A stretch of 64,000 nucleotides of DNA from Protonemura montana (lineage: Eukaryota; Arthropoda; Insecta; Plecoptera; Nemouridae), in the NCBI GenBank assembly GCA_947568835.1, contig OX387606.1, positions 21,801,225-21,865,224 of the forward strand. Direction: 5' to 3'. This document shows, one piece after another, positions 22,416 to 53,154 of this stretch. The stretch's first letter is position 1; each line of letters opens with the position of its first letter. A program made the position numbers and the translations under genes. The notes under the pieces are model-generated. The model made no database searches. It had not been told where the DNA came from and saw only the letters and a list, made by a program, of their open reading frames with translations.

Positions 22416-25400
22416 ATGTCTGCACCTGGGTCTGGTAGGGCGATGGGAAGATCCCGAGGGCGAGCTAAAACCGTGGTTACGGCAGGAGAGCAGAAACCTG
22501 CGGGTCCTGGACAAGCCCCTCGACAAGCCCCTCGACAAGCCCAAGCCCAAGCCAAGGTAAGATCATCTAATTTTACTAGCCAGTTCTATGTGTTTCTTGC
22601 TGTTGTGAAACCTTGCTACTGTGCTTCAAATTTTACAAAGCTTTGAAGAAAGACAAATCAATTTTTGGGTAGTGGCCTGCATTTCTTCTTACTGAGTAGC
22701 TTAAATAAATCCACCAAGAAGTTCCAGATTTTTTTACAGACTTCATTGTTTCCTTGTTATATTCTGAAGTGTTTGCATCTTTCAAGTTCTCTTTTGTGAC
22801 TTTTTGGATGCAGCACTAAGTTTCAAAGAAACACTAGCACCCCTAAGTTTTCATGATAAACTATGTACAATTTGAACTTTGCTCTTGTGCTTAAAGTGGT
22901 TTATTGCTGAAGCATATAGAAGTCACAAAGGAGAACTTAATAGGTACAAGCTTTGCTTATTCCATCAGAGCCAGGCTTCTAGCTAACCCAATATCTTGTC
23001 TATGATGCTACATGGTGGGTGCTGTGGTTTGATGACATTTTCCCGATTGTACCTTGTTCCAGCCGTTTGAAGGGGAGAGGGCGGTCCAGAAGGTAACACA
23101 AGCTGTCGCCGGCCTGGCGCTTCACGGCTGTGAGTCCATTAGCAATTCAATCTTAAATTACTGTTTGGTTTGGTAAAGTTGCTGGTCCTCTTGAGATCAC
23201 CGATGTTAAGCAACAAACACTGCGCTGGGTCAGGTATTGGACTGGTCATTACTGAATGGTTTGGCAGGCTAAAAACACTGGTCCTCGTGAGATCACCGAC
23301 GTTAAGCAACACTGCGCTGAGTCAGGTATTGGATGGGTGACCATCATACTCGAACCAGTTCAGCCTGGGAAAGAGGTTGGAGGGATGAAAGTTAGTACAG
23401 CAACTTCACTTGCCTTGCTTTTCAACCCCCGTCAGCATGGATTTGTAGAGCACGTTGTACTGGCCTTCGGAAGGGGTTTGAAGGCAGTGGTCCACTTAAT
23501 GCTCCGTTGGGAGTAGGCTTTGAGCCGACACCAGGTAACTGGTTTTATGTCCATTGTCTTAGCATGTGAGCCGGGTTTCATTTGTTTCAGCATGACACAT
23601 GTATATGTTTGTTTTTGTTGTGTGTTCCAGCCTCCAGCGGAGAGGCGCTGGGCCGCGGAGCCGTGCGCGGCCGGCGCACTGCGGAGATCTGCACGCTCCG
23701 CACCAAACCGGAGACCCTCAACTCCAAAAAAGGTGAGTTGCAACCCTGGCTTGATCGCCCCTTCACGGCACCCTGCTGTGGCCTGGGTGGGGAGAGAATG
23801 GCCCGTTGGTACACATCCAGCAATACCACTGATTGCCATGGAGAGACTTAAAAGCTAAGACTGCCATCTTGAGAGACCCTGATTTTGAGTTATCTCAAAA
23901 AGACTGCTATATTAAGTGCTATGACCAGTAATTTTCACGATGTTTCAATAACTCTTCCATTAGCACTGAAATTGTAGGGACACCTCAGATTTAGGGACTC
24001 CTACCTGGTGCACTTCTAGATTCAACGGGAGAAGAGCATTGCCATGGAGACAACACTGTTAGTAAAAACTCATACTTCATACAATTTTATCCTCAATACA
24101 ATCAGCTTAGTTAAGGTAGGAATCTGAGCTAGACAAGAAAAATTTGTTACCGAACTGGGATACGAATCCGGGTCCTTCCAATTGCCGGTTGAGTGCCCCA
24201 TTGAGCTATCCGGGCAGACAGATTACAGCTTTGCAGGGTAGCACAAGGGATCCGGACGAGGGGAAAGATACCGATCTGACTCCTATGAATTTTTACTTAC
24301 CACCTTTTGGATGCTAGTTACCTTGCAATCGTGCAGTCACGCTTGTGATAAGAACCAAATAAATTAACAACCGCTCCGTTGCAGGAACGTCTGGGAGGCA
24401 CGTGATGTTGACGGCCAACTACTACAAGCTGGAGACGATGCCCAACTGGTGTCTGTACCAGTACCGCGTGGACTTCTCACCTGAGGAGGACCGCACTATG
24501 GTCCGCAAGGGACTTCTACGTCACCACAAGGAGTTGCTGGGAGGGTACATCTTCGATGGCACCATGCTTTTCACTTCCACCCGCATTGCGACCGAGGTTT
24601 GAATTGCTTTCTGTTTCTCCTTTCTGTGTCTCTAGATTTGACTAAAAAATTACGAAGGCCAGCGATTGAGACATTCCCCGAAAATTTTTCGGCAATTGCC
24701 TGACAGCAGCGGATAAGTTGTAGCTAGCTTTAAATGTATATATCCTAGATTTTCTGAGGTATGCCAGAGTAATTCCAAGTTAATAAAAAATGTTGAATTT
24801 AACTTCATTTGCCACCCAGACCTCTAATAGCCTAGATAGCGGTTGCCATGGCGAGACTTAAAAGACAAGGCCGCCATCTTGAGAGTCCCTAATTTAGAGT
24901 TGCGCTACTTTAAGTGTTTTTAATGGTTGTTTATTAATTATTAAAAATTTGGGACACACTGACATTATCTGGTAGTTGCTAGGTGATGTGTACATTTGAT
25001 TGGTGATATGTACATTTGATTGGTGATATGTACATTTATATTTGTTAGCTGGCGATGACTTATTAGCTTTAACTTTACACTGCTAGGTAACAGTTTCGAT
25101 TTCATCTGGGAATGTCACCATTGCTGGGTTTAGTAACTCAATTTCATAAGTTTTTGCAGCTTTCATAATTTTCATCACTTGTATGGTCAACATCGGTTGA
25201 AGAAATGTTTGAATAACTCTCACATTAGCATTAGAAACATGTGATACCTTCGATAGAGGGACTGCTACCGGTTGCACCCCCGGTAATGAGAGCGCTTGGC
25301 CCTTGCAGCCGACCGAGTTGTTCTCCAAGCGTACAACCGATGACGAGAATGTGCGTATCACGATCCGATTGGTCGGTGACCTTGCCGAGGGCGACGCCCA

Positions 25401-31400: not shown

Positions 31401-34400
31401 TAAGCCGTATTTAAACGCCAACCAATGTCTGTTCCCCTATTGTTGTCGTTATCAGCTAGCGTGTCTGTATGCTCCGCCCCCCAGATCAGCTCCAAGAGCC
31501 CGAAGCTAATCATGTGCGTGGTGAGCAACAACCGGCTGGACCGGTACTCTGCCATCAAGAAGAAGTGTTGCGTGGACCGTGCCATGCCCACCCAGGTCAT
31601 GCTTGCCAAGAACCTCAGCTCCAAGGGGGTGATGTCCATTGCAACGAAGGTCGCAATCCAGATGAACTGCAAGGTGGGCGGGGCTCCGTGGACTGTTGAC
31701 ATCCCGCTGCAGGTAAGGCCCGACAGCAGCCAATAACGGTTGATCTCGCACCGTCTTGACCAACGGGTCATGTGGCTCTGGTCTTATGGTGTCAGTGAGT
31801 GAGTTGGCAAAAATGTTAAATGTTACCAATCAAATCACCACAAAATTCTATGTTTTATATTACTCAATGTCTAGTGTCGTAAAGTAACAGTGAGGTAGCA
31901 TTGGTTTGACTGTTTACGGGCACGTAATCTAACAACGGAGCACTCGACAACCTCCCATTCCGCCAATTAACCAAGATCGTTTGCCATGTTTGTTAAAATA
32001 ATGCTCTGTGATTGGCTGACATAAGCATAGTGCCTAAGAAGTTGGAATATTTCAACTTTGTAAAATGCTATTTAAATTGTGTCAATTGTGTGCAGTCCTA
32101 TATGATAACCAAGTTTTAAGATCCTTGTGTGCTATGCTTGTGCAAATTACACTCGAGGGGAAGTTGCCATCCATTCTGATAACCGACCTTCTTTGAATTA
32201 CACTTCGGTTATCCGCCAAACGTTATCGACTAGCGTTGTACTCCACCAGGGTCTGATGGTTGCCGGCTTCGACGTGTGCCACGACACTGGCTCGAAGGGC
32301 AAGTCGTTTGGCGCCCTCGTCTGCTCGCTGGACAAAGCGTTCTCGCGCTTCTTTTCGGCCGTCTCCGCACACACGACTGGCGAGGAGCTCAGCAACGACC
32401 TCAGCGTCAACATCACGAAGGCGCTGCACAAGTACCGCGAGTACAACGAAGGCAAGCTGCCGACGCGCATCATCATCTACCGCGACGGCGTCGGCGAGGG
32501 ACAGATCCCGTACGTCTACCAGCACGAGGTGGAGCTCCTCAAGGTACGTGCCTGAGACATTGCTTAGAGATGATAATAATAATAATAATAATTTTATTTA
32601 TTCAATGTGAACAATTACAAAATTGTTATTTGAAAATGTCAAACTTAAAAACAACTTAAAACAACTTATACATGATCCTAACTACCGGTTAACCACTTAG
32701 GGTATCGTCCTTAAAGAATTCTTCAACCGAATATAGTTGTTCATCTGTAAGAAACTCTTTCAGCCGGGTTTTGAAGGCGACGTCCTTTAGACCTTTAATA
32801 CTTGCGGGTAGCCTGTTGTATCCTTTGGCCCCAGCATATGAAGGGTTTTTTTCATAAATTGTCAGGGTGTGTGTGGCCGTTCTGAGGTCTGCTTTTCCCC
32901 GCGTGTTGTGTTTGTGCCCGCTGCCGTTGGTGGTGAGAGTGTGCCGATTCTGTCTTGTCAAGGTGATGGTGCTGTAGAGGTAAAGCGCTGGAACTGTCAT
33001 TAATCCTAGAGTTTTGAACAGAGGTCTGCATGGGGTTCTGCGATCCACGCCCATAATGGCTCTTAGCGCGCGTTTCTGAATTATAAGTACTTTTATTCTG
33101 GGTGTGGAGCATCCCCAGAAACATATGCCGTAAGTGAGGTGTGATTGGAAAAGTGCGAAGTATGCAAGTTTTAGCACCTCTAAGCTGGTTACAGGTCGAA
33201 GGTTGCGCAGTAAGAATACTATCGTAGATAGTTTTTTAGTTATCGTGTTGATGTGTGGCAACCAGTCGAGGGTGTTGCTGATGGTAAGCCCAAGGAATTT
33301 GGTCGTGGTGCATTCCATGAGGTGTTTGTTACCTAGGCTGATTAGTGGGCTCGAGAGTAGAGTCTTTTGGTGTGTGTGGAATTGTAGGTATATTGACTTA
33401 CTAGTGTTAACTATAAGATGTTCAGTGATATAAGCTTTTATGACGTTAGGTCTAAACATAAGATTTAATATTTTGTCATCTTAGCTGTAAGTAAATGCTA
33501 ACCTGTATGAACTTAAAGTTTTTGGGGAATACCTTCGGGGAACAAAAATAGCCACGTAGGGATTCGATCACCAGACTGACGCCGACCAGCGCAGAGCTAC
33601 GACATTTCGCTACGGTGTTATATAACCCATCGGGTCGAGGTTCAACCTTTTGAACTTTGCCTTATATTAGTGTGTTTCCTTCATACACACCTCCACAAGT
33701 TGGCCGGATATCCTTTTGTATCGACATGTTCTCGTCCCTTGCAGACCAACTTGACAGCGATCTACGGAGACAACTCCTGGAAGCTGGCGTTCATCGTTGT
33801 GACGAAGCGCATCAACACGCGGCTGTTCCTCGACAAGAACAACCCGCCTCCCGGCTCCATCGCCGATGATGTGATTACCAACCCGGAGAAGTAAGTCGGC
33901 CTAAAATGACTCAACTCTAGCTTAACAAGCTAGTAGCTTGTTGGTATAGTATACTAGCTCATCAGTAGCTTAACAAGTCTGGTCATGATGGTGAGCCAGC
34001 ATTGCTCGAGTGGAAGCCCTGGTTAGGCTTCTCTTGCACATGCTGCAAGTCAAGCTGTTGTAGGCTAACGTCGATGAACCGACCTCGTGGAATACTGCTA
34101 CGTAAGCACAGAGTAGTGAGACGTCTCGAGTAAGTTGCCATGTTCTTGTTGACTCCTAGGGAAATTTTCCGCGGCGTCTGCCGCAACCCGTTTTCCAAAC
34201 TCAGCAAGCTGTGTTCCATCTTTCCTTGAGCACATTTCATGTACAGCCATAGTATGACTGCCAGGGTTTAAGGTTAGCTTTATGCTGTGCAAACGTGCCA
34301 TCCGATGGCGCTTGGCGAAAACTTGTCAGTTTAACGGGTTTATTTTTGGAGTGAAAAAATGATTAGGAACACTAATAACCTCTCAATAATTGGTGTTCAA

Positions 34401-35232: not shown

Positions 35233-38200
35233 TTTTTGCGTGAAATTTTTCGTTTCAAAACAGCTAGGTGTGGTATTTTTGTAACTGGCAACGAGATTTT
35301 TCTGCCGTTAAACACTTAGGTGTTCGATTTTAACATGCTATGCTGTGCCTGAGTGAGGCGACTTATGTTGTAATTATTAGATGACTGAGCTGTCCACCAA
35401 TGATTTTGAAGGTGATTGATCATCTTCGCTCTTTCCTATGTTAACGTCAAGTTGTTGCTCTTTGCAAGCTTGATAACATGATCCTAGAGAACAGACGACT
35501 TTAATGGTTGACCTTGTAAGCATTACAAACGAAAAACTTGCCATATTGAAGTAGTTAGCCATATTTTTTGTTTCTAGCTATATTCTTATATTTTCTTTGT
35601 CCAGTTTCCTGTTCGTAGTAACGTTCTGCCAATAGTTTTTGTTCTAAACTTTCTGGCCAGAAGGAGTGGGGATCAAAGCCTTGGCAACCAGGCTCCCCTA
35701 ACAACGTGAGATACACGTGAAAGATATTAATGTGTTTCTAATTAATATTATTAGAATTGTATCTATCCTTATGATAAGAAAAGAAGTGTAAATTGATTAA
35801 AATGTTGTAGCACTGGCTGACAACTGTTAGTAAACGGAGGAAACTTATTCTTAACTTGCCATACAGAGTGTTTCTGGAAAAGGAAAAAGGTATGCATGTA
35901 AACTTGTGTGGAAACGGATTTTTTACGACGCCTTGGGCCGAGGTTTTTACTCCCTGTTCGAGCCATCAGGCAGCCAACATGAATATAGGTTAGGACTAGA
36001 GTTTAGTTAACTGGATGATCGTGAGGCTGGGAAGTCAACGGATGGAACAAATTTCCTTCCACTAGATTTAGTTGCAATCGTTTTGTTATACGTTGGAAAT
36101 TTGGCCAATTAACCAATAAACCATTTTTGTACATGGTTAACTAAGAAACATGGAATTTTTTCTGGAACCCTCTGTGTCCCTGTCCTTAGAACGCTCCTGG
36201 GTCGCTGTGCCTCTTTCCTCTCCTCTGACTACTTTAAAGTAGTCTAGAGTTATTATGATTTCACATGATTTGAACATTTTGGCAAGTTTCTCTTTGGTAA
36301 GTTCTCTTTCTTTCCTCACCTCAACATTATCCACCCTCTTGGCACCCCACGTGCATTGCACTCTAGAAGAAATGCTTCTTTGGCATCCCGGATAATCGTA
36401 GAAGTTAACACCTTTCGAATAGTGCAGTGTTTCTTTATTATGGTAATTCAAACGAGATTGGTGCAGTTGCTGGTTTAGTCCTTCGTAAGTCTTAGAGAAA
36501 TGATTGGTCAGTAATTATTCTACTTGTGAGGAAGGTAACGTAGCTGATGGTCTAACAACGCTGCGTCCAAGGCAACCAGCTTTCTCATGCTTGTTAAGTT
36601 GGGTTCCACTTCCTTCCTTACTCTAACAATCCAAACCAAACTATGGTAAACAGGACTGCAAAGGTAACACCACAACACTTCCGATCAAGACTTGGAATAA
36701 ATTGTATCGGATTGAGGGCAGTATGTTAACGCAGTACAAGGAGTTGTAAAATTGGTTGGGTGCTTGTTGAAAACACGAGTATCACATGCTTCATGCAGAC
36801 ACTCGACGATCCGTGGGCATACTTGTACCTGTGCTTGTACGTGCTTGCATCATAGTTGAAAGGTGATAATCATTCGAAAGTTGCCATAGTATTCAATTAT
36901 TTTTCTGAAACACATCCAATCCTACATATGTCGCATTACAAATGTTCCCGCCTAGAGAACACGGTTCAAGGTTTGGCCGGATGACAGCGGAACGTGCGGC
37001 GACATGTACAGGTTGTTTGGCGAAGCGAAGAGCGCGTCTCAGTTCGGATACTCCTCTCTGGTTCGGATCGCCGAGGCGGATGGCAAGTACCTCGCACATG
37101 GTAGGACCTGTGCTGCGAGGGAGAGCTCTGTCCGTGCTTCTTGAGTGTAGCTAGGTGGGCTTGGCTGCGGCGTCGCTTCTGCTGTCGAATCTTAGAGGCA
37201 ATCAACAAGTGGTTCTGTGAATAAGTGGTAATCGAGTTAATCTACACAAATAAATGTCAAACTGTCTTATCCAATGAATGGGTACCATTTCAATTCCTTC
37301 TAGAGCCACTTTTGACATAAGAGCTAAACAATTGCATACAACGAGTTTTGACATGCTGCTGATCTTCTCTCACCGCCCAGACTTAGCATGCACGCGTATT
37401 TACAATTTTTCTGTATTGCCTTGCGTTTTGTTTGCTGCATGGAGTTGTCATCCCTCCAAGCTTCGACGAATGCCGTACCACGGATAAATCCATCGAGGGT
37501 TTCATGTCATCTGACTCCGGCTGATTTATTGGGGTAATTTAGATATGCATGGTAGCTTAAAATGATTCTCAGAATGTCAGCACTCACGAGGACACGGTCT
37601 ACACCGAATATTAATCTATTAACCGATTAGATTAGATAAGACCTCATCCAGCAACTAGTGAAATAATTTCCTTCATTCATTTTAGATCCTACATGTTTCA
37701 TTGGTGTCTTTGTTTCTTAGTCTACTTTTATGAGCCCAATGCTGCCTGAATTTGATTAGCCAGTCTCATTTGGTTTTGCTTGGAAATCGGTAGTAGTTAT
37801 ATCATAAATACCGAACGGCCACTCAAACTAAAATAATCCACATAATCACCAGACCTTTTGGTCAGACCCAGAATGATATTGCAGTAATAACAAGGACTAC
37901 CGCATAATGTCATAATATACCGGAATCGCAATGCGCCAATAGGGATTCGCAAACATACCTCTGTGACCCTGGGAATCCCTGGTGGATGGGTAGTGGATAG
38001 GTGCACCGAACTGCTTCGACTGGGCTTGGTAAGTTAGGAGAGAAGCTTTAACATGTGGGTGACCTCCAAATGCAAGGTAGATTGTTGCAGTTCGCTTTAT
38101 TAGTGGTCGTTTCAGACTTGTACGCATCCACAGTCTGAACATTTGTGTTGATTGACTAACCTATGAGATTAGTATATGTAAGGTTAATGAAAATGGAATG

Positions 38201-38567
38201 TGGGATGTCACTGCTAGCAGAACTGATCTGAATTAAAATAAAAAACACTTAAATGAAAGCTTGGGGAATTGCAACACAAATGTGTTTTATGTGTAGGCAA
38301 TTAGCTCTTGAAAAACTAATTTCATTTCATTGGTGAAATGTGGGTAAACTTAAACCAATCAGATAATGAAAACAATCAATTGATAAGGAACCTGCGAATA
38401 AAATGATTAACTGTGTAAGAGGTAGCTTAAAAAACTTCAAAGTGGCATTGCCTTCCATCGTATTTTAGAGCTATCTCTACTTTTCTTTAAATCGTGTTGT
38501 GTCCCTGTCCTGCTTGCAACTTTAAGCTTAACAGTTACGCTGAAAGTTCGTGACGTTGCCTCTGCAG
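35233..38567. other. PIWI-RNF216 intergenic region
   Basis: Mostly AT-rich with no supported gene. The exception is 36940-37200, which is clearly GC-richer and may be the RNF216 promoter or first non-coding exon. The RNF216 start codon is preceded by an acceptor-like GCCTCTGCAG (ending at 38567), so an upstream exon is expected. Confidence 0.4.
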
Positions 38568-41500
38568 ATGGCAGCCGCTCAGGATGGCCAGGCCGAGTTG
38601 CTCGGAGACAGCGACGACAAAGCCGCCATTCTCATGCTGCTCGTGGAAATGTTTCCGAATCTCTCGTGGTCGCAGTTGCGCATGCATTGTGACCTCTTTC
38701 CCGCCAACGTTGACTTGGAATTCCTGGTCGACTCTCTGATTGACGTACAGCCCGACGGGGGGACGCCGCCGCCGGAGTGGCAACACGAAGACTTAATGTT
38801 GTTGGACGCCGAGATCAACGTGCCGCTTGACGAAGGACTGCCACCACCGGATCACCGCCATGAAGATATCGCCGGGGAGTTTGTTGAAACTACGATCGAC
38901 CCGAAAGTAGAGACACGAAACGATGTCCGGCCAAGAGCGATGTCGAAGAGGTGGACCGAGAGGCGACTGCCGTTACGGCCGCGGCTTCTGACCGCGTGTC
39001 GAACTCCACGCAGCCTTCGAAGTAGGCGTGCGGAGGAACAATACAAAGATCCCAAGGTTAGTGGCAGGAAACACTGGTCCTCATGAGGTCACTGAAGTTA
39101 ATAAAAAATGTGCCGGGTCAGGTATTGGATGGATGACCACCAAACAATTCAGGGTGCTGCAAACAGTTGAAACATTGTAGGTTTTTAGCCAAGAAAGGGA
39201 GTTCTCTGCATCGTGTGGCACCACATAGCTTTTACCGATGGCTGAGACAAAGCTTTGCTTCGATTCGAGTTAACGCTGGAACTTGTACACAATCCCTTTC
39301 AACCAAGCAACCATGCTGATGTGCAGCGTGTCAAAAAAAGATAATGTATAATAGTCATAACAATTGCAGGCACGTAGAATTTAAACAAAGTTTGTACAGC
39401 GGGTGTCTCTCATTGAAGACGATGCCTCCCCCGAAGCGATGTCTTCCAAAAGGCTGAGTGTGGCGCCGGCTAAGGAGCAAGCTTGTGGCAAGCCGGTCCC
39501 CACTCTTAAAGTCTGGCCAAATGTGATGGAAGTCCAGGCACGACCAGCGTGAAAATCTGTTTTACTCGATACAAGTTTAGTCCGGCCTGTTTGCTGATTA
39601 AAAAATCTTTACTTTGAGCACGAATCTCATTTGCAGGACTCCGATTCCGAGACGGAGCGTTCTGATTATTTGACGGTTTCAAGTGATTCTGAAGAGGATT
39701 TTGATGAAACCACTGAGGTTTTGGATGAGACCACTGAGGTTTTGGATGAAACCACTGAGGAAATTGATGACTCCGCCGAGGAATTTGAAGACACCATCGA
39801 GAATTTTGACGATTCTGTGACAGCAGAGTCTCCCATAGCTGTGGCGGTGCTGGAGGAGCGTCCTGTGCAAGATGTGGCCCCCGTGATCCGCCTGGCAGAG
39901 ATGTTCCCTGATTCGCCAGTGGAGGCGCTGGCCACGCTCTGTCATGACAACCCTGGACTGTCGCTGGCGCAACTGGTGGCCGAGTTCCTTATCAACCAGG
40001 AAGCTCAGGTATATTGTCCGAGTCTAGGCTTGCGGTGATCCGTTGCTAGGAGACTGGATTATGTGGTTGCACGCAATTCTCTCACATAGCAATATTGATC
40101 AATGTGAATATTTTTAGTTGCAATTAAAAATTTTCATCCTGGATGTCTTTTGGAAGAATGTGGTGTAGCATTAAGTCGATATTATGCATCGTAACTTGTA
40201 CAAGATTTTTTCTGAAAATGCTGCAAGTACGGTTGGGTCATTGAGAGCAAGTTTTGCTCTTTTGGGAATGCCTGGATAAGGTTTTTGGGGTTTTCAGGAG
40301 ACCTCAACTAAGAGTTCACAGTTGCGTCGAGCTTTACTCGCGTTATCATCTGAATTTTACTGGTTGGTTCTTGCCATGGCATTTGTTTCAACAGACACTT
40401 CCCGGAGTAGGATTCGGAATAGGAGTAGATTCGAAAGTAAAACGCACCAATCGTTACCTACTTGCCAAGTGCTCATGATGAAACAAAAATTGAAGGTTTT
40501 AAGACTTCCCAGGTCACAAGCAGTTGAATCCTGGCCAAGCTAAGACCAAACCAAAGCAAAGCTGTTAAATTATGGTCTGTGATTGGTTGGACATTAGCAC
40601 AGCAAACAAGAAGTTGGATTCTCCAAACATTGCTTGGAAATGTTCTGAAAAAATGTTGTGCCATTGTGTGTCAATATGATAACCAAGTTTTAAGATCCTT
40701 GTGTGGTATGCTTGTGCTTCTTGCTATGTCAATTGTGTGCAGTCGCATATGATAACCAAGTTTTAAGATCCTTGTGTGGTATGCTTGTGCTTCTTCCTAT
40801 GTCAATTGTGTGCTGTCCCATATGATAACCAGGTTTTAAGATCCTTGTGTGGTATGCTTGTGCTTATTGCTATGTCAATTGTGTGCAGTCCTATATGATA
40901 ACCAAGTTTTAAGATCCTTGTGTGCTATGCTTGAGCTTCTTGCTATGTCAATTGTGTGCAGTCCCATATGATAACCAAGTTTTAAAATCCTTGTGCGCTA
41001 TGCTTGTGCTTATTGCTATGTCAATTGTGTGCAGTCCCATATGATAACCAAGTTTTAAGATCCTTGTGTGCTATGCTTGTGCTTATTGCTATGTCAATTG
41101 TGTGCAGTCCCATATGATAACCAAGTTTTAAGATCCTTGTGTGATATGCTTGTGCTTATTGCTATGTCAATTGTGTGCAGTCCCATATGATAACCAAGTT
41201 TTGAGATCCTTGTGTGCTATGCTTGTGCTTATTGCTATGTTAATTGTGTTCAGTCCCATATCAAAACCAAGTTTTAAGATCCTTGTGTGCTACGCTTGTG
41301 CTTATTGCGATTGCAATTGTTGGTAGACCTCACGACTTCGGAGATCGCAAGAACGTCTTCACTTTAGGATGAACTCTTATTTAAATTGCAAACGCTTGCA
41401 ATGCGCAGGGTATTTTATTATTAACAACACTATAACCGTCTCAAAAATTGATGCCCAAACGCGGACTCGAACCCCGATCTCCACCTTTCGCGGGTGTTGC

Positions 41501-44500
41501 TCTGAACCATTGAGCTATCTGGACACTGGCTTTTTGAGATGATTTTAGTGTATTTGATGAGAATGACAGTTCCCCAAGGAGTAGAACTATGAGGCTGTGA
41601 ATACTCACACTCACTCACTCACACACACTCACACACATTCTAGTGACGCAATATCAGTTTGCAATATATCAGTTTGCAATATATCAGTTTGCAATTTAAA
41701 GAAGAGTTCATCCTAATACAGCAACGAATCCAACGTCAATTTGGAGTTCTTCAAGTTTGACATGTTGTGACGTGATATAGCGTCACTAGAATCAGAGTGA
41801 CTGTGAGTATTCACAGCCTCATGGTTCTACTCCTTGGAGAACTGTCATTCTCATCAAATACACTAAAATCGTCTCAAAAAGCTAGTGTCCAGATAGCTCA
41901 ATGGTTCAGAGCAACACCCGCGAAAGGTGGAGATCGGGGTTCGAGTCCGCGTTTGGGCATCAATTTTTGAGACGGTTATAGTGTTGTTAATAATAAAATA
42001 ACGTCTTCACTTTGTTTAGGAGGCGGCCAACCTTCCAGACTCCAGCTTAACGGATCTCGAAATCGAACCTGTCGAAGCAGATCTCGTCGACCATAACGCC
42101 GAGGACGAGATCGAGATTCCCGAAGAACCTGAGGACCTTGGCATGATTCAGAGGTGCTACCATTTGCACAGCGCAGAAGTTGGTTGATCTAAAGATGTGA
42201 CAGCTAGATTAAATTAATTTGTTGCTCTGTTTTGACTATGGGCCATGTGGGTCTGGACTAATGGCATCGGTGAATAAGTGTATGATTAAGAGGATGATGA
42301 TAAACCTCACCCACAGCCCAAATAAAGGTGGGTAAACCCAGTGACACCACCAGCTTAACGTCACTACCTGTCCAGTATTGGGTAATTGACCATCATACCC
42401 ATGACCAGCTCTGTTTGGGAAAGAGGTTTGAGGGATAAAAGTTAAGTAACATGACGATGGGTCATGTATTGGATGGGTGACCATCATACACATGACCAGT
42501 TCTGTTTGGGAGAGAGGTTGGAGGGAAGAAAGTTAAGCAACACTGCGCTGGGTCAGGTATTGGATAAACACGAGTCATGACCAGTTCTGTTGGGAGAGAG
42601 GCTGGAGGGATGAAAGTTTAGCAACACTGCGCTGAGTCAGGTATTGGATAGGTGACCATCGTAAACATGACCAGTTCTGTTCGGGAGAGAGGTTGTAGGG
42701 ATAAAAGTTAAGCAACACTGCGCTGAGTCAGGTATTGGATGGGTGACTGTCATACTCAGGACCAGTTTTGTTTGGGAGAGTGGTTAGAGGGATGAAAGTT
42801 AGTACAGCAACTTCACTCCTGCAGATACCAGATGCTGCTGACATTGTTCCCGTCGGCCGACCCTGATTTCCTCCGCCAGAGTGCGGCGACTTTGACCGAT
42901 GCCGCGGTGCCGGACTTTGTCGCCCGCACGATGGAGTCGGACGACTACCCAGGAGAAGATGTGTACCGAGCGAGGGAACGTCTGCGCCGACTTAAGGACA
43001 AGTACATCGACCGGTTCAACGCCGCTGCATTCCTTGCAGCATTCCCACAGCCAGCAGAACACTTCGCAACCGTAACCCATTCTTTCTCTTTCTGCAGAGC
43101 CTGGCATTATGACATTTTTAAAAAACCTTATAGATTAAATACTTACTTCTGGCAATGAACTGTAGTAGCCAGAAGTAAGTATTTAATTTATAAGGTTTTT
43201 TAAAAATGTCAAAAAAGTTTTTTTTTTAATAAAGGTTGTCATGAAAAAATATTTATAAAAGAAAACCGGTCTCAACTGATACCAACGGTGTTAACTAAAG
43301 AACTCAGATCTGCTATCTTAAGTTACCACGGGCATATCATGGCCTAGCATATGAGGTTCAATGGTAGATTCAACGTTTGGTAGCCATGGAGATGCTGAGA
43401 TCGCCTAACAGAGCTTCTCAATTCTGCTATCTTATGTTACCACGGGCATATCATGGCCTAGCATAGGAGGTTCAATGATAGATTCAATGCTTGGTAGCCA
43501 TGGAGATGCTGAGATTGCCTTACAATGCTTGTTAAATATGCGATCTTATGTTACCGCGGTTATAGATTAGTGCTGGGATTCTGACCAATGAGCTGGCCTG
43601 TTTATTGTTCTTGTTTTATGACAGCGGAAGGCAGTGGTTAGCGCAGGACGCACTGAGAATGCTCTAGCCTACCTTGCCTTGCGCTACACTGCGTCTTCCC
43701 CCGAAGACCTTGCAGCGCTTCTCGAACGTAACGAAGGCAACTTGAGTCGGGCCTGTGAAGAAGCCGGCGCCGGGAATGCGGCGGGCGAATGGATCGATGT
43801 TCTTGTGGACAACAACGAAGACATGCTGCAGGAGGTGAGCCTGCGATTGCCTTGGAATTAATGAGCCAGGTCAACTAGCTGATCTCGCTATCAGCGGGCT
43901 ACATTCCGGTTTCACTAGGTTTGGGCTTAACATTTGATTTTGTCATGCCTTATACTGCAACATCGAGGTTATTTAGTTTAAATCCAGGTTTAAGGTTAAA
44001 TTAATTTTTACTGATTTTTTTAAATATTTTGAACGGTGGGTCAGGTTCATCCGTCCAGGTTTAATTATTACACGGTGTTAAGAGCAGAGAGAAAATAGTA
44101 ACAAATAGTTACATTGTCTTTTAAAACTTTCAAAATGCCAGCTAAATGGGGAAAATCTTTTTTGGCCTAAAACCACCCTTTAACTCCGATTAAGCAATAT
44201 TTAAACGGCGTTGGTGAAATCGGTGCTCAGAGATCGAGCTTAAGCAAAATATTGACAGCTTAATGACCGCTCAAAAGTTAATTTTGTTTAATGCTACAGA
44301 ACAGTGCCTTCTAGTCCTACCACCACACTTAAATTAGGGCTTGGATTTTGGCTATAGAACGAATAGCACAAGGAAATCTTCCCCAAATTATAATTTCATA
44401 ATAGGGAAATCTCTTAAAATTTGAAACAAATTTTTTATTTTTTTTTGTGAGAAAATAATGAACACGTATTTTTTTATTTTCTTCTAAATCCAATTTTGAA

Positions 44501-47500
44501 TGAAATATACCTGTTAAAAATGTTTGCGTTTCAATCTCGTACGAAAACGAGGGTCGCCATTTTTATGACGTATTGTGAAATCTGACGTCAGTATGACGTC
44601 AAAAAACAGTAGCGAACGCACAGGTGACCCAAAATGACGTCAGAACAGAATTTCTGACGTCACAGCCCGTTTTCATCCCGCCACGAAAATTTTATATTTT
44701 AGCCATTCTTGAAACAAAAATAAATAGAAAAGTTACGATCGGATTTTAAAAAGAAAAAATACATCAGATTTTATTTTAAATGCGTATTTGAACACAATAA
44801 TAATAATTGAATAATAATATTAAGGAGATTTCCCTATTGAGAAAGTAGAAATGGAATAAAAACCAGGAAATGGGAACCATTCTGTCGTTTTGATTCTCAT
44901 AGTAAATGATCAAATAATAATATAAATGCAGGCTGCTACATGCAAGCCAGTGTATTGATAGACTTTTGACAAACTCGAGGCAAGAGAAGTCCTCGACTTG
45001 ACAATGTTCTCCGTTTCAGATTGCATTCATCGAGCACCGCAGGGAGGTGGAGTTGGTCCAACGACGCATGGCCGAGTCCAAGCAGGTGGCGGTGATCGCG
45101 GTGAGTTAAGCAACACTGCACTGGGTCAGGTATTGGATGGTTGACCACCGAATGGTTTGGCGTGTTTGAAACACCGGTTCTCGTGAGATCACCGAAGTTA
45201 AGCAACATTGCACTGGTCAGGTATTGGATGGGTGACCACCGAATAGTTTCTACATTTTGCAGGCTCAGTGCAAGAAGGAGACGCTGACCTGTGGTTGTTG
45301 CTATGGAGACATGTTCCTCCTCAGTGACATGGCTGCTTGCGTGGACGGCCATTTGTTCTGCAAGGGTTGTGTAGTTGTGTACGTATGAATTCTTACCTCC
45401 AAGCTTTAAGCGATGGTTCAAGTTACGTCAATTTCTTAAAAAATTGTTTTCTTCCTGTTCGATTGATTTATCTATTGAAAAATATTTGACGGCTTAAATT
45501 AAGTACAGTGGTATGGTACCTACATATTCAGTAATTTCTGATGCCTGCAGATTGAAATTTGATTGCTAGGCAAAAGCTACAAAGAGCAGTTGATTTTTTA
45601 ATTTAAAATTGTTATGTACTTTGTGGTTACTTGCGATAGGCTGAGTAGTTTTTTGTCACGAACAAAAGTGAGTAACCAATCGGGGAATTCCAAAAGACTG
45701 TGACTCGTCAAGCATGTTTTTCTTACAGTGCATGCCTTTTTCTTTTTTTCATTTGTTTCACGGACATGTTTTTTTTTTAATTACTTGAGTTAATATTTTC
45801 TGCTGTCATCTACGGCTCACTTGTCATTGGTTTTTTTTGGAAATCATCCATTTTCATATTCACCCGTTTTTCATTTTCTATTAAAATTAATAGAAAATAT
45901 AACCCTTTATTTAAGGCATAAGAAACTTTATTAAAATATCTGTCAAATCATTTGCCATCTTCACCTTCATGCTCTTTGTCAAAAACCGTCTTCTTCCGTA
46001 TGAAATATTTAATACCTTGTAAATTAATTACACAAAGCAAAGAATATGTCTTCAATTTTCAAAAACATATTTTTTTTTCTCTGTTATTAACAAAAGAAAA
46101 AAAAAATTTTGCAAAGAAAATGAGCAATGTTCAGTACGACTAGAAGGAATGTCTGTCTGGTTTTTCTGCAAATATCTCGTCTGTTTGTCTTCAGGTCAAG
46201 TGAGGTTTTGATTGGACAGGGGAAGTCCAGGTTCCCGTGCCTCGGGGACTGCGACAAAGAGTTCAGTATGCAAACTTTACAGGTACGTAGCTGCATTCAA
46301 CCGTCCAGTAACAGAGTCCCAGCGCTGATTTTAAACTTCCTGCCATTGGGTTTACAGGTTTAGTCAGTCACAGTGCTAATGTTCAACGTCCTGCCATTGG
46401 GTTTGCAGATTAAGTCAGAGCCACAGCGCTAATGTTAAACGTCCTGCCATTGGGTTCACAGGTTTAGTCAGAGTCACAGCGCTAATGTTAAATGTTCTGC
46501 CATTGGGTTCGCAGGTTTAGTCAGAGTCATAGCGCTAATGTTAAACGTCCTGTCATTGGGTTTACAGGTTTAGTCGGAGTCACAGCGCTAATGTTAAACG
46601 TCCTGCCATTGGGTTTACAGGTTTTGTCGGTCACAGCGCTAATGTTGAACTTCCTGCCATTGGGTTTACAGATTTAGTCAGAGTCACAGCGCTAATGTTA
46701 AACGTCCTGCCATTGGGTTCACAGGTTTAGTCAGTCACAGCGCTAATGTTAAACGTTCTACCATTGGGTTTACAGGTTTAGTCAGTCACAGCGCTAATGT
46801 TTAACTTCCTGCCATTGGGTTTAAAGGTTGAGTCAGAGTCACAGCGCTAATTTGTTAAACGTCCTGTCATTGGGTTCATTGGGTCATTGGGTGGCAAATA
46901 GTTTTTTTTCTTCAAAACAAGTGCTAAGTATGAATAAATAATTTTAAGTCGAAAACCATAACGGTTCCCTACATGCGAAAACTAATCTAAATTGCAATAC
47001 TTCTAATGCGCAGGGTATTAAAATTTTAGGGACACTAATAACCTCTCAAAAATTGATGCCCAAACGGGGACTCAAACCTCGATTTCCACCTATTGATGGT
47101 GTTGCTCAAACCAATTGAGCTACTTGAGACACAAAATTTTTGACAGGATTTTAGTGTAATGAAAAGGAATGAAGGTGAAGAAGAAGGAAGGTGAGAACGT
47201 CTGTGTTGCCGTGTTCCAGTCTGTGTTGGTTCGTTCCACATTCCTGCGCATGGTGCAACGTCGCCAGTACGAGGAGGTCTACGCGGCCGAGATCCCCGAC
47301 CTTGAGACGTGCCCGGCTTGCGACTTCAGCGTGGTTCCAAGCCCCGAAGACATTGTGTTCACCTGCCTCAATCCCGAGTGCCTTCTAGTCACGTGCAGGT
47401 TAGCAGCCCTTGGCTTCAGAGTTACTCTTACCATTCCTTTCACAGCTGATATAACCCTCAATGAAGTAACAGGCATAATGGGCAAAAATGAGTTGCTTTT

Positions 47501-50500
47501 ACTCGGCATTCACAAACACAGTTTTAAATATTATTTTTTCAAAACTAGTGCAGATAATGTAGACCGGAGTTTAACTCTCTGACTTATTTCCTATTATTTT
47601 CCACCTATTCTTGTGCTGATGTTCCGCTCAGCCAACGTCCAGAATTTATTTTTATATTGCAGTATATGTTTTGAAATGAGGGACCAAAGCTAGAATTAAA
47701 ACATCTGAGTTTATTTCTGCATTTCACAGCAAATTTGCTACTTAATAAACTTTGTAAACACTAATTTAAATTCAGGGTTTATGGTTTTTCTGGTGATTTC
47801 ACACGGGAGCTGAAACCAGCAAGCGAAGGATGGAAAGGAAGCTAGACTGAAAAAATGTGCAACTGAACGGGTATACGAACCCGAGACCTCCTAATTGCCG
47901 GTCGGGTGCTCTACTAACTGAGTTATCCAGGCACACATATGCTAGTAAAATGTGTGACCAAACAGGGATACGAACACAGGACATTCCGATTGCCGGCTGG
48001 GCTTAAAATAAGTGGGATCTGGATTGATGACCGCGCTATTTCCAACAGCGAATTCAAAATAAGTGTTTAGATTTTTTTAGCGCAAATTGTTACTTTTGCC
48101 GTGAAAAAATACCCAGATCCTGAACTGGAAATAACTTGTTTACTCCTTGGATTAATTTTTTGACTATAAATGGGTTATGAAAATGAGTTGTAATTTTGAA
48201 ATAACATGCATGAACGCCATCGTTGAACGAAGATGGTAATGATGACTCTTTGTGGCAAGTCTGATGTGAAAGTGAGGATGTTCTGTGTTCGCAGGAAATG
48301 TCGAGAGCCCAGTCACATTCCGCTGCGTTGTGACGAGTTGCCGGAGAAGGAAGAGCACACGAGAATTCGGAAGCAGCTCGAAGATCGAATGACGCAGGCG
48401 CTGATCAGGCAAGAAACGTCCTAGGAACTGTGCATTCATTACCGTAACAAATCCTACTTGATCCAGTAAAATCTACTGCTCCAATCAAGGTTAATCCCAG
48501 TAAACTTTGCGTAAAATGTTTAGCACTATTACGTTGCTCGGAATGGATCTAGTGAGATTTGCTTGCCGGCTCGGTAGATCCAGGAGGTTTTGAGACGCAA
48601 TCAAAAATTATTAATTATAAATGAAAATTATGCCGCTAGTAAAATAATGAAAAATAAATGGAATGACAGTTAAAGCATCCTGTCACACTGAAATAATTTC
48701 TTTTGCCTTTAACAACATTCTTGATTGCAATTTGCTACTTTCTAACTTATACCCCGTTCTAACTTTCTGCTGCACGTGTTTGAAGTGGAAGCAGGGAATG
48801 GTTCACATAGATTCTGTTTAACGAATATGTTGATTGGGAGAGTACGGAACTTACCGAGCGGGATTGGGACGCCGCGATAATGTAAATTGTTTGTTAACGT
48901 TTCGGCTGTTGTCTTCATCACTTGAGAGCAGAGACTGTTTGTTGTCCCTACCTGTTCCATACTGTGGGGTAGGGGTGAGACAGGGGTGGGGTGGAATGAA
49001 AATAGGTTGGGTGAGGGGGTAAAAAATGGTAAGGTAAGGTGGTGGTGGTAGGGGGCAACAATGTACTGTTCAAGATTCTGTGTTAATTTTGTGCTTAAAT
49101 AATCAACTTTTTATGGGAAAATAATGACTAAACAGATCAAATTTTGCTGAAAAACATGGGCTGACGTTTAAAAGCTAGAAATTAAGTGCTTTGCAGACGA
49201 AGGGTTCAAGAACACGGAGCTTTTTCGGTAAAAAATGAGCACTGTTGGTGTTAATTTTGTCAAGTGGAGTTTTTTTTTCAATGCCCTGTTCGAACAAAGT
49301 TCAGTCCTTTGTCTGCAATGCACTCGACTTGAACCAGTTTTTGTCTGGAAAAGTTGGTCTGAAATTTCTTCCCCTGAAAGTTTTAGAAGCATTCTGTGGG
49401 CTGAGACTTGGCTGACTTGGGTGTGTATGCCTCGTGCAGGGAATGCTGGAAATGCAAGAAGAAGTTTGTCAAGTCAGACGGCTGCAACAAGATGCAGTGC
49501 ACGTGTGGGGCGCTCATGTGCTACTTGTGCCGTCAGCCCGTCAAGGACTACTCGCACTTCAACGGCCCAGGGGGCGACGCCTTGCAGAAGTAAGTCACAA
49601 GTCGTGATGCTAGATCTCAATTAACCATGGAGAGACTTGCAAGGCACGGCCGATCTCTTGAAAGTCCATGATTTTGAGTTCTATTAGAGTTTGTGCTTTT
49701 TTAACTGTTGTCATTTGTAGTTTTCATAGTTTTCATTGTTTTCAAACTTTAATGGTCAAAATCGGTTGAAAACTTTCAAACTCAAAATTTTGCATTGTTG
49801 CCAACAATGGATTGCCTGATTTTAATTTTGATCAGCTGGCTGGATCCCAAGCTCTATCCAGGTTATATGAGATCAGCTGGCTGGATCCAAAGATCTTTCT
49901 AGGTTATTCGAGATCAGCTGGCTGTATCCTATGCAGATGCTCTATCCAGGTTATTTGAGATCAGCTGGCTGGATCCTATGCTCTATCCAGGTTATTTGAG
50001 ATAGCTGGCTGGATCTTATGCTCTATCCAGGTTATTTGAGATCAGCTGGCTGGATCCTATGCTCTATCCAGGTTATTTGAGATCAGCTGGCTGGATCCTA
50101 TGCTCTATCCAGGTTATTTGAGATCAGCTGGCTGGATCCTATGCTCTATCCAGGTTATTTGAGATCAGCTGGCTGGATCCTATGCTCTATCCAGGTTATT
50201 TGAGATCAGCTGGCTGAATCCTGTGCTATATCCAGGTTATTTGAGATCAGCTGGCTGGATCCTATGCTTTATCCAGGTTATTTGAGATCAGTTGGCTGGA
50301 TCCTATGCTCTATCCAGGTTATTTGAGATCAGCTGGCTGGATCCTATGCTCTATCCAGGTTATTTGAGATCAGCTGGCTGAATCCTGTGCTATATCCAGG
50401 TTATTTGAGATCAGCTGGCTGGATCCTATGCTTTATCCAGGTTATTTGAGATCAGTTGGCTGGATCCTATGCTCTATCCAGGTTATTTGAGATCAGCTGG

Positions 50501-51431
50501 CTGGATCCTATGCTCTATTCAGGTTATTTGAGATCAGCTGGTTGGATCCTATGCTCTATCCAGGTCATTTGAGATCAGCTGACTGGATACTATGCTTTAT
50601 CCAGGTTATTTGAGATCAGCTGGCTGGATCCTATGCACTATCCAGGTTATTTGAGATCAGCTGGCTGAATCCTGTGCTATATCCAGGTTATTTGAGATCA
50701 GCTGGCTGGATCCTATGCTTTATCCAGGTTATTTGAGATCAGTGTGTTAGATCTTGAGACCAATTAGCATTTTCGTTTGTAATTGATTGCTAATGTTTCT
50801 TTTGTTACTGTTTGTTAATGAGAAAAGTGCTGTGTAAGTTTTTCCTACCTGAACTCTTTCTTTAATTTCCTTATGTAATGAGGAAGACCAAAGATACTAT
50901 TATAACCTTCGGTTAAGAGGGAAGAGGGTAGAAATTACGTAACTTACCGAGTTTGAGATGGCTGATCGTGTTCGATGTTCAGAGCTTATGACATTTCAGT
51001 CATGTAACCTTGTTCAAGTAAAGTAGAATATTCTCTTACTTTACTTGAACAAGGCAACATGGTCATGTAACGTTCTGCACAAGTGGAATCAGCTTCCTCA
51101 TACAAAGTAAGTTGTGTCCTAGTTCTTTCGTCCTAATTGCATTTGAGTTACTATTGAACAGCAAAAACTTGAGTGAACAAGTTGTGACTATCGCTATGTT
51201 GTTTGGTTTCCAATCATAACCATTTATTTGATTCCAGAAATGCAAGTCCCTCTGGTCCCGTGAGCTAATTGGAGACTTCGTCACTCTGCTTTCAGATGCG
51301 AGCTTTTTTCTAACAATGAGAAGCTGCACATTGACGCAGTTCGTGATGAAGCTTTCAAAGCCAGGGCTGAAGTTGCTCTAGAGAATCCCAACCTAGAGTT
51401 AAAGTTTGACCCTACCCTGTTGCTGCCATAG
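38568..51431 (+). CDS. RNF216: RNF216/TRIAD3-like RBR E3 ubiquitin ligase
   Basis: Thirteen exons: 38568-39056, 39400-39522 (end uncertain, 39522 or 39531), 39637-40008, 42020-42153, 42825-43071, 43625-43834, 45020-45100, 45263-45378, 46195-46282, 47220-47398, 48295-48408, 49440-49589, 51296-51431, about 812 aa. N-terminal CUE-like helices (LLVEMFPNLSWSQL, LAEMFPDSPVEAL) lie among acidic stretches with DETTEVL repeats. RING1 begins LTCGCCYGD (residue 560), the IBR has ETCPACDF and FTCLNPEC, and RING2 reads ECWKCKKKFVKSDGCNKMQC with C733 at the catalytic thioester position. RNF216 makes K63-type chains and controls receptor and autophagy-factor turnover; the role here is inferred. The exon 11 donor is AG|GCAAGA, a GC-AG intron, the only site keeping phase and homology. 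The protein ends soon after RING2, unlike the longer proline-rich vertebrate tail. Confidence 0.92.
39057..39160 (+). repeat. 5S rRNA-derived repeat beginning at the RNF216 exon 1 donor
   Basis: Starting at the donor itself, GTTAGTGGCAGGAAACACTG parallels the GGTTTGGCAGG...AACACTGG segment at 23.26 kb. It is followed by GTCACTGAAGTTAA and CAGGTATTGGATGGATGACC, the 5S box A and box C parts. Confidence 0.7.
40660..41335 (+). repeat. 73-bp tandem satellite, about 9 copies
   Basis: Units with ATATGATAACCAAGTTTTAA and ATTGCTATGTCAATTGTGTG repeat at exact 73-bp steps (for example 40971, 41044, 41117). It lies in RNF216 intron 3, in sense orientation, opposite to the copy in ZC3H11A relative to the window. 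Confidence 0.93.
41345..42000. repeat. inverted pair of tRNA-derived SINEs
   Basis: The right copy (about 41770-42000, plus) has box A TAGCTCAATGGTTCAGAGC and box B GGGGTTCGAGTCC; the left copy (about 41345-41640) is its near-exact reverse complement. Each tRNA-like core is bounded by complementary arms: CACTAAAATCGTCTCAAAAA before it and TTTTTGAGACGGTTATAGTG after it. A CACTCA microsatellite separates the copies. Immediately after the pair, RNF216 exon 4 begins at 42020. Confidence 0.88.
42325..42824 (+). repeat. tandem 5S-derived array running into an RNF216 splice acceptor
   Basis: AAAGTTAAGCAACACTGCGC recurs near 42441, 42532, 42616 and 42707 (84-91-bp steps), each followed by CAGGTATTGGATGGGTGACC and the non-5S tail GACCAGTTCTGTTTGGGAGA. 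The last unit ends TTAGTACAGCAACTTCACTC, and CTGCAG at 42819-42824 is the exon 5 acceptor, so the repeat lies within 10 bp of the splice site. Confidence 0.85.
43111..43210. repeat. 100-bp perfect-hairpin element
   Basis: The 43-bp arms 43111-43153 and 43168-43210 (starting GACATTTTTAAAAAACC) are complementary with one mismatch around a 14-bp loop. It begins 40 bp after the RNF216 exon 5 donor. It could be a foldback MITE or could fold as a hairpin RNA. Confidence 0.85.
43310..43570 (+). repeat. 114-bp tandem repeat, 2.3 copies
   Basis: Contains TTACCACGGGCATATCATGG and GGTAGCCATGGAGATGCTGA. Unit starts lie at 43312, 43426 and 43540, in RNF216 intron 5. Confidence 0.85.
43879..44403. other. 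RNF216 intron 6, unannotated part
   Basis: AT-rich intron sequence with no repeat family shared elsewhere in the window and no exon-like open segment. Confidence 0.4.
44404..44834. mobile_element. TA-target MITE carrying CRE palindromes, copy 2
   Basis: The termini GGGAAATCTC and GAGATTTCCC are flanked by TA (44402-44403, 44835-44836). The interior aligns with 8790-9212, including TGACGTCA-like sites. It lies in RNF216 intron 6. Confidence 0.9.
45101..45262 (+). repeat. RNF216 intron composed of two 5S-derived repeats
   Basis: The 162-bp intron begins GTGAGTTAAGCAACACTGC, so the donor overlaps a 5S box A (AAGTTAAGCAAC). It contains two copies of TCAGGTATTGGATGG followed by a GACCACCGAAT tail, and one full ACCGGTTCTCGTGAGATCAC segment, very close to arthropod-type 5S rRNA. 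The end TTTCTACATTTTGCAG is the only clearly non-5S part. Confidence 0.85.
46300..46890 (+). repeat. 53-bp minisatellite, about 11 copies
   Basis: Units contain CACAGCGCTAATGTTAAACG and CCTGCCATTGGGTTTACAGG, with period 47-53 bp. It starts within 30 bp of the RNF216 exon 9 donor. Each unit has a splice-like TTTACAG|GTTTAG, resembling the real donor context TTTACAG|GTACGT. Confidence 0.88.
47026..47165 (-). repeat. tRNA-derived SINE copy
   Basis: The minus strand has TAGCTCAATTGGTTTGAGC (box A) and AGGTTTGAGTCC (box B), bounded by AGGATTTTAGTG and CACTAATAACCTCTCAAAAA remnants of the flanking arms. It lies 55 bp before the exon 10 acceptor. Confidence 0.75.
47850..48005 (-). repeat. tRNA-derived SINE, second family, one full and one partial head
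   Basis: The minus strand reads GCCTGGATAACTCAGTTAGT (box A) and CTCGGGTTCGTATACCC (box B). A second truncated box B with GTGTTCGTATCCC lies at 47960-48000. Related to 24145-24226. Confidence 0.72.
48825..49065 (+). repeat. Penelope-like terminal fragment
   Basis: AATATGTTGATTGGGAGAGT, AACGTTTCGGCTGTTGTCTT and GTGGGGTAGGGGTGAGACAG match the left terminus of the element at 60.06 kb. No coding part is present. It lies in RNF216 intron 11. Confidence 0.7.
49838..50745 (+). repeat. 41-bp minisatellite with higher-order structure, about 22 copies
   Basis: Units follow GATCAGCTGGCTGGATCC with TATGCTCTATCCAGG at 41-bp steps. The variant CTGAATCCTGTGCTATATCC recurs at 50214, 50378 and 50665, intervals of 164 (4 units) and 287 (7 units). 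It is followed each time by a CTTTATCC variant, and by a GTTGGCTGG variant in the first two cases. It lies in RNF216 intron 12. Confidence 0.93.
51008..51054. repeat. perfect 18-bp-arm palindrome
   Basis: CCTTGTTCAAGTAAAGTA, an 11-bp loop, then its exact complement. CATG-containing flanks extend the pairing with mismatches. It is in the last RNF216 intron, about 240 bp before the final exon. Confidence 0.85.
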
Positions 51432-53154
51432 CTGGTGCAATAGCTGGTGGCATAGCGGGTTCCCAAGCTGTTACCATAGCTGTTGCCAAAGCTGAACTGC
51501 CAACATAAAGTTCCTATGGCCAATTTTTTAAAACCATATTTCAATGTTCTGTTTACCTCACTGAAATTGTGAACATACACATTTCGATATTATGTGAAAG
51601 CTGGAGAATGATATTTTTAAGTGATTCCAAGGCAATGTGAAGAATACCTCGTCAGATCGGTTAATCGATCGACTTTTGCACTGTGTATTAACTAAGTGAC
51701 ACTATTTTTTAATGTTTATTTCCTAATACGTTTGTTGCGATAAAATTATACTTGTTCCGTGCATGTTATTTTGAGCAAATTAATTATATTAAATGCACAT
51801 CTTGAAATACATCCTACACGTGTACGATGTTTGGCCCTGCAGGATTTCAGTCACAAATTAATATTACTGCTAGAAATGATTAAGTTTCATCTTGTTTCAC
51901 GTTCGTTTTTATGTATCCGAGGCCTGAGAAAATATAGACAACAATTTTATTAAGTAATTGAAGTTATGAATAATATTTGTATTAAAAGATTTTTGTACGG
52001 TTGCGTTTAGGCAGGTTTTAACATGTAAGGCCAATTTATCCGCCTCAGTCCGGGTTCAATACCCGACCGGTGCACGCTTTGTTCTTCAGATAGTAGCGTC
52101 TGAAATTCATTTTAACAGACCAGGGTTGGAATACGGGTCACAGTAACTTTTTGTTCTTCACGAAATAAGGACTGGAATTTATAAATTACATCTCAGGTTC
52201 GATATTAATTCTCGCACTCAAATGCACACCCCAGTTTTAAGATTAAAATTAAGGGAGTTTTTCAAGTTTTAATGCTGGAAATCGATATAGCAGCCAAAGT
52301 ACGCCAAATCTACATATCCCATCGTGTTCGGGGTGCAAACTACCCCCTAGACCACAGTATAGGCAAATCTTCAAAAATCAAGAAAAAACGTTTTTAAAGT
52401 AAAAATTTGACTGACAAATTTTCACTTGCGAGGGTTGTAAGTAGGGGTAGAATTTTAAGGGGAGTTGAATTCACACCCTAGTTCTTACCTGTGATGAAAA
52501 CTCACCCTGCGTTTCTTGATTTCCTTCCTAGTCCACGACCTACATTCCTCGACTTCCAGCGCCTGCGTTATAGGCACATCAGCGCCTATGTGTACCCCCT
52601 TCAGGATTCATTCACAAATTAATATTGCCGATAGAACTGCTTTAGTTACATCTTGTTTCACTTTCGTTAAATATACCTGAAACCTAAGAAAATATGGAGG
52701 ACAATTTTATTAAGTAATTGAAATTATGAAAAATAGTTGTAATAAAGTTTTCTTGTACCATTTGCCTGATCCGTCTATATACCCGCCTCGGTCCAGACTC
52801 GATACCCGACCGGTGCCCGTTTTGTTCTTCAGATAGTAGCACCGGAAATTTCTTTACAATAGACTTATTACATCAAGAGTTCGGTATCGTCCACCTCGAT
52901 CAAGAGGTCAATCTGGCACGTTGGGATAGTTGGTACTCTCGGTGCTGAGTTGTGATTGCTGTCCAAGTATCTGTTATGTCTCGCAGTTACATAGCTGGAT
53001 GGAAAGATAGTTTCACGACAAGCCGAGCACCCGACGATTCTAAGTTCAAAACCTCGCTGAATCACTTTTTGTTCTTCACAAAAGTCGCGACTTGAATTCA
53101 TTACTAGAGACAAACTGCATCGCGTGTGTGCTAATAAATCTAATCTTTCTAATG

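Follow-up and report, generated by a model that had tools for sequence, protein, structure and literature searches.

Among the repeats that have been described, 5S-derived SINEs such as HaSE3 of Helicoverpa armigera and PxSE4 and PxSE5 of Plutella xylostella come closest to the sequences reported here; these SINE3-type elements have a 5S head in which the stretch of boxes A, IE and C is best kept, and they occur dispersed and in introns (PMC3272025, PMC8010984). Introners are repeats that fill nearly the whole of an intron and give splice-site bases; a family numbers from 5 to over 2,000 copies in a genome, and some families bear signatures of DNA transposons (49 of 130 have target-site duplications and 72 of 177 have terminal inverted repeats; Gozashti et al. 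2022, PMC9860276). Because reports of introners come from few animal groups (PMC9860276), the source of new animal introns is largely open. No word in the main text of that paper begins with SINE, non-LTR or rRNA, and among the titles and abstract starts retrieved from an open-licence library none names a 5S-derived introner. In plants, TFIIIA pre-mRNA contains a 5S mimic that is part of an exon; it binds L5 and causes exon skipping (Hammond et al. 2009, via PMC5972288).

In the 64,000-nucleotide stretch of Protonemura montana DNA analysed here (the window), one intron of the RNF216 gene is made almost wholly of a repeat descended from 5S rRNA, and two further introns of this gene carry the same repeat near a splice site. 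As in an introner, the repeat fills nearly all of RNF216 intron 5 and provides bases of its splice site; however, only one of the ten RNF216 introns is made of repeat (two others to 17-19%), the boundaries of the copies differ, and many near-identical copies forming whole introns were not found within RNF216. Intron 5 also shares with plant TFIIIA the presence of 5S-like sequence within a pre-mRNA, but in RNF216 it lies in an intron and folds no better than shuffled sequence. With three copies of a 5S repeat ending near splice junctions of a single gene, the idea that repeats of this kind give rise to introns or take over splice sites can be tested concretely and genome-wide. Should no more than the content of the intron have been replaced, intron 5 would still be a clear case of a repeat forming almost an entire intron sequence.

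The RNF216 gene (38568..51431, + strand) was modelled by us from the genomic sequence with 11 exons and 724 aa, and the spliced coding sequence forms one 724-aa frame with its sole stop at the end. Its RBR region matched human RNF216 7m4m (E 2.8e-32, with a query lacking exon 9, which was found later). The name of the gene rests on this match, because Pfam gave no RING or IBR family at E ≤1 for the joined RNF216 pieces or the single ORFs. The link between exons 1 and 2 is weakly constrained in the model and an optional exon at ~39400-39540 was omitted; the acceptor of intron 2, TACCAG|ATG, was picked by frame, as use of the upstream gCAG leads to a stop. Intron 9 of the model (48409-49439) has a GC donor, CAG|gcaaga...gcag, and the RBR frame requires the use of this donor. 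Upstream of the gene, PAZ and Piwi exons were recognized by Pfam at 29009-32555 (+). The model contains 10 introns, nine of which measure 553-2823 nt, and intron 5 measures 162 nt.

Intron 5 (45101..45262, +, phase 0, GCG|gtgagtta ... ttttgcag|GCT) is the shortest of the ten. The sequence-only reading had placed an intron at exactly these positions, and the gene model agrees with it: this is a GT-AG intron whose removal keeps the RNF216 frame open, and the frame also requires it, since read-through beyond GCG gives GTG AGT TAA and thus reaches a stop within the 5S part. The peptide across the junction is VAVIA-AQCKK (VAVIA|AQCKKETLTCGCC). Scored with a generic donor matrix, the donor GCG|GTGAGT ranked 9 among the 902 GT dinucleotides of 38000-51999. 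Judged by its boundaries and frame, intron 5 is an ordinary spliceosomal intron that is predicted to be spliced. The donor had also been said to overlap box A, and this could be confirmed: family sequence covers intron bases +4 to +11, AGTTAAGC, so that +4 to +6 of the donor are 5S letters and +1 to +3 (GTG) are not. At the other end, an acceptor stretch of 13 nt (45250..45262, +; ctacattttgcag) lies outside the repeat and has no family match by nhmmer or blastn, although the full-length 5S model of Rfam extends across it by using non-standard pairs. The branch point may likewise be supplied by 5S, the best candidate being TGAC of box C with its A 27 nt before the last intron base.

In total, 146 of the 162 nt (90%, 45104-45249) were homologous to the repeat family, in agreement with the earlier proposal that the intron is 5S-derived almost throughout; the 16 nt outside the repeat are the GTG of the donor and the 13-nt acceptor stretch. 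Likeness to 5S was above chance, as Rfam RF00001 matched 45147-45261 with 50.2 bits, over the gathering score of 38 bits (E 1.7e-7 over the full window, 1.2e-9 over 451 bases). Unit 1 (45104..45158, +; blastn, nhmmer) is partial, starts inside box A and overlaps the donor; nhmmer gave it 59.1 bits at 45101-45158, and Rfam gave no separate 5S match for its 55 nt. Unit 2 (45159..45249, +; Rfam, and nhmmer at 45156-45249) holds the 5' part of 5S through box C and lacks the 5S 3' end. The two units are 92.7% identical over 55 nt by blastn and 89% in a wider alignment. By blastn, the copy in intron 5 is truncated on either side: it starts within box A and stops at a joint between units. Two tandem 5S copies had been proposed for this intron; two 5S-like units are indeed present, but they are members of a dispersed family and not fresh copies of a 5S gene. 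The dimer was 83% identical to 23205-23343 over 139 nt (blastn), and because its joint is common to the copies at 23.2 kb and 45.1 kb, it is probably not a local duplication made within intron 5. Two independent 5S pseudogenes are ruled out by the derived core that the units have in common.

The family comprises nine units at four loci of the 64-kb window, all on the + strand; they were found with an nhmmer profile built from those same nine units, whose matches therefore hold by construction. All further nhmmer matches had E 0.03 or worse, the best two falling within the body segments of the copies at 23 kb and 42 kb. The core TCAGGTATTGGATGGGTGACCA occurred at 7 places with ≤3 mismatches, all on the + strand, compared to 0.01 expected; at this place 5S rRNA reads TCAGTACTTGGATGGGTGACC. 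All nine units carry GTATTGGA at the site where 5S rRNA has TACTTGGA. Going by these letters, the family is a dispersed descendant of 5S rRNA with shared substitutions of its own.

Outside intron 5, a dimer with a body segment precedes the PAZ and Piwi exons (23161..23410, +); its units scored 85.5 and 76.3 bits with nhmmer, its tail was followed to 23410 by blastn, and the Rfam 5S match at 23251-23365 (34.9 bits) is under the gathering score. A monomer occupies the 5' end of RNF216 intron 1 (39057..39165, +), with an Rfam 5S match that is also under the 38-bit gathering score (33.2 bits, E 1.9e-5 for 221 bases) and 76.7 bits with nhmmer at 39053-39150. RNF216 intron 2 holds a tandem array of 5S core and body segment with a period of ~91 nt (42344..42817, +; TRF at 42387-42801, and blastn). 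As Rfam found no 5S in this array alone, it is tied to 5S through its blastn likeness to the other copies. The family accounts for 19% of intron 1 (580 nt) and 17% of intron 2 (2823 nt). A body segment ending AGTACAGCAACTTCACT is common to the copies at 23.4 kb and 42.8 kb; at 23383-23410 and 42790-42817 the body ends in GATGAAAGTTAGTACAGCAACTTCACT, which is box A-like (AAGTTAAGCAACACT), and on this likeness such an end may be the origin of the tandem units.

The closest known kind to which these repeats can be compared is that of the 5S-derived SINEs HaSE3 and PxSE4/5. Dispersed copies with common derived substitutions were found, and, as read from the sequence, the copies have a 5S head with putative Pol III boxes A, IE and C. 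They differ from 5S SINEs in being dimeric or arranged in a 91-nt array and in adjoining splice junctions, and no simple 3' tail was seen on them by eye. No target-site duplication was found at any of the four loci: the longest word shared by the flanks was 5 nt, a length that 68-86% of shuffled sequences also attained (86% of 2000 for intron 5), although in old copies such duplications could be lost. The family is not classed as a SINE, because target-site duplications were looked for and did not appear. As a target duplication at intron 5, the pair of GCAGG words at 45082 and 45259 was no better than chance.

The last coding bases before intron 5 had been said to resemble 5S as well, which did not prove correct. 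When the end of the exon was aligned, anchored on its right, with three full 5S-like copies, the score was 2, which was matched or exceeded by 311 of 600 dinucleotide shuffles and by 363 of 1751 other RNF216 exon windows. Exonisation of VAVIA from 5S, with GCAGG as the duplication, was tried as a candidate and fails both the exon-end and the target-duplication tests.

The sequence-only reading had suggested that a 5S SINE supplied or rebuilt the intron together with its 5' splice site. The repeat does provide nearly the whole intron and the donor bases +4 to +6, but the exon is not 5S-derived and the hallmarks of a clean insertion are missing, with no target duplication and both ends truncated. 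We consider it most probable, at roughly 60%, that the repeat entered an RNF216 intron that existed before and that deletions then removed nearly everything else. A family member would have inserted into the intron already present, and deletions, or recombination at a short match, would then have stripped away nearly all of the original sequence; a candidate for the short match is the AGT of the donor GTGAGT and the AGT of box A, AAGTTAAGC. The donor GTG and the 13-nt acceptor stretch would be the remnants of the original intron, and the 5S sequence would since have supplied donor positions +4 to +6 and presumably the branch point. Residence in a larger intron is the commoner state here, since RNF216 introns of 580 and 2823 nt house two of the other three copies, and truncation at both ends is expected from deletion rather than from clean insertion. 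The 16 nt outside the repeat are too few for an earlier intron, which excludes simple insertion into an existing one; if the intron did pre-exist, at least one sizeable deletion must therefore be assumed. In a search for related loci, no confirmed locus was found in viral contigs (two DNA patterns and one exon protein) or in genome contigs (one pattern and the same protein), and none of the stretches that matched short peptide patterns, 11 in the viral and 59 in the genome contigs, was a relative.

Against replacement of an older intron speak the length of intron 5, an outlier close to the length of the repeat as would be expected for a newly gained intron, and the position of the RNF216 copies. 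All three loci in the gene (introns 1, 2 and 5) end ≤14 nt from a splice site, which random insertion does not predict. In the Rfam alignment of intron 1, 5S nucleotide 1 falls on intron nucleotide 1 (AAG|gttagtggc); this alignment spans the whole model, gaps included, so that the exactness is weaker, and nhmmer and blastn start at 39053 and 39062. Of the nine helix I pairs formed with the 3' end of 5S, the monomer retains eight (chance 0.002), and the donor of intron 1 ranked 10 of 902 GT with the same generic matrix over 38000-51999. The array in intron 2 stops 14 nt before the intron end (42831), 2.3 kb from the donor, and in intron 5 the gaps are 3 nt to the donor end and 13 nt to the acceptor end. 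None of the 8 other intronic arrays of RNF216 came within 14 nt of a splice site, the nearest lying at 29 nt (Fisher P 0.006, post hoc). These controls were TRF arrays wholly within RNF216 introns, with overlapping rows merged by hand and the 5S array excluded; the exonic array 39694-39809 and the array 51424-51494, which overlaps the end of the last exon, were also left out. The closeness of the three copies has a P of 5.5e-5 under uniform placement across the RNF216 intron space and of 0.0017 with each copy kept in its own intron, where intron 5 adds nothing (0.47); both values are post hoc and depend on the gene model. The 23.2-kb copy was excluded from these placement tests; a possible donor at 23130 would lie ~31 nt from it, which would make three of four loci within 14 nt.

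These observations would fit the birth of an intron, in which an element derived from 5S, or part of one taken up to fill a double-strand break, would have inserted into coding sequence. It would have been spliceable since 5S resembles a donor, with GTTAGT of the 5S 5' end in intron 1 and AGTTAAG of box A in intron 5, and the family would be introner-like. The 90% repeat content of the shortest intron, the alignment of the 5S start with the intron start in intron 1 together with the kept helix I pairs, the contrast between three of three copies and none of eight other arrays near a splice site, and the location of all nine units on the RNF216 strand argue for it. We nevertheless think such a birth unlikely, as target-site duplications are absent at the four loci, the intron 5 copy is truncated at both ends and flanked by an exon that is not 5S, one intron in ten is made of repeat with copy boundaries that vary relative to the introns, and no contact with a splice site is known for the 23.2-kb copy.

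A broader proposal, which appears distinctly doubtful to us, is that the 5S-derived family has repeatedly supplied splice sites, the GTTAGT of its 5' end or the AGTTAAG of box A serving as a ready-made donor, in an introner-like manner and in an animal. Insertions into genes would then become introns or capture the ends of existing ones, and RNF216 introns 1, 2 and 5 would be three products of this process in one gene.

We attach little credence to a spread of the array by ectopic recombination, in which the 5S units would act as other intronic minisatellites of the genome do, and units from intron 2 or elsewhere would have been copied by unequal exchange or gene conversion and would have replaced the content of intron 5. 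The same core does form a tandem array with a 91-nt period in intron 2, and RNF216 introns house several minisatellites, of which two recur at another locus (by eye). However, the joint in intron 5 is closer to the 23.2-kb dimer (83%, 139 nt) than to the body-containing units of intron 2 (73%, 138 nt).

Retention of the 5S fold was rejected as a candidate, since neither folded copy beat its dinucleotide shuffles: 187 of 200 were at least as stable as unit 2 of intron 5 (z +1.32) and 141 of 200 as the copy in intron 1 (z +0.53). That intron 5 is kept as a 5S mimic which binds ribosomal protein L5 or TFIIIA and so regulates RNF216 splicing is hardly credible with these folds and with the non-standard pairs of unit 2 helix I in the Rfam alignment, even though unit 2 exceeds the Rfam 5S threshold and the 5S-mimic exon of plant TFIIIA (PMC5972288) is a precedent.

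Several other repeats and RNAs were observed in the vicinity. A minisatellite of 53 nt with 10.8 copies (46312-46876) begins 29 nt past a donor, and its consensus contains TTTACAGGTTTAGT, resembling the nearby exon end TTTACAG|GTACGT. By eye, a 73-nt minisatellite was recognized at 6591-6946 and 40674-41320, in opposite orientations, and a 41-nt minisatellite at 29621-29819 and 49830-50742. RNF216 intron 2 additionally harbours two inverted copies of tRNA-Ser(CGA), at 41450-41525 and 41886-41961, with identical Rfam scores.
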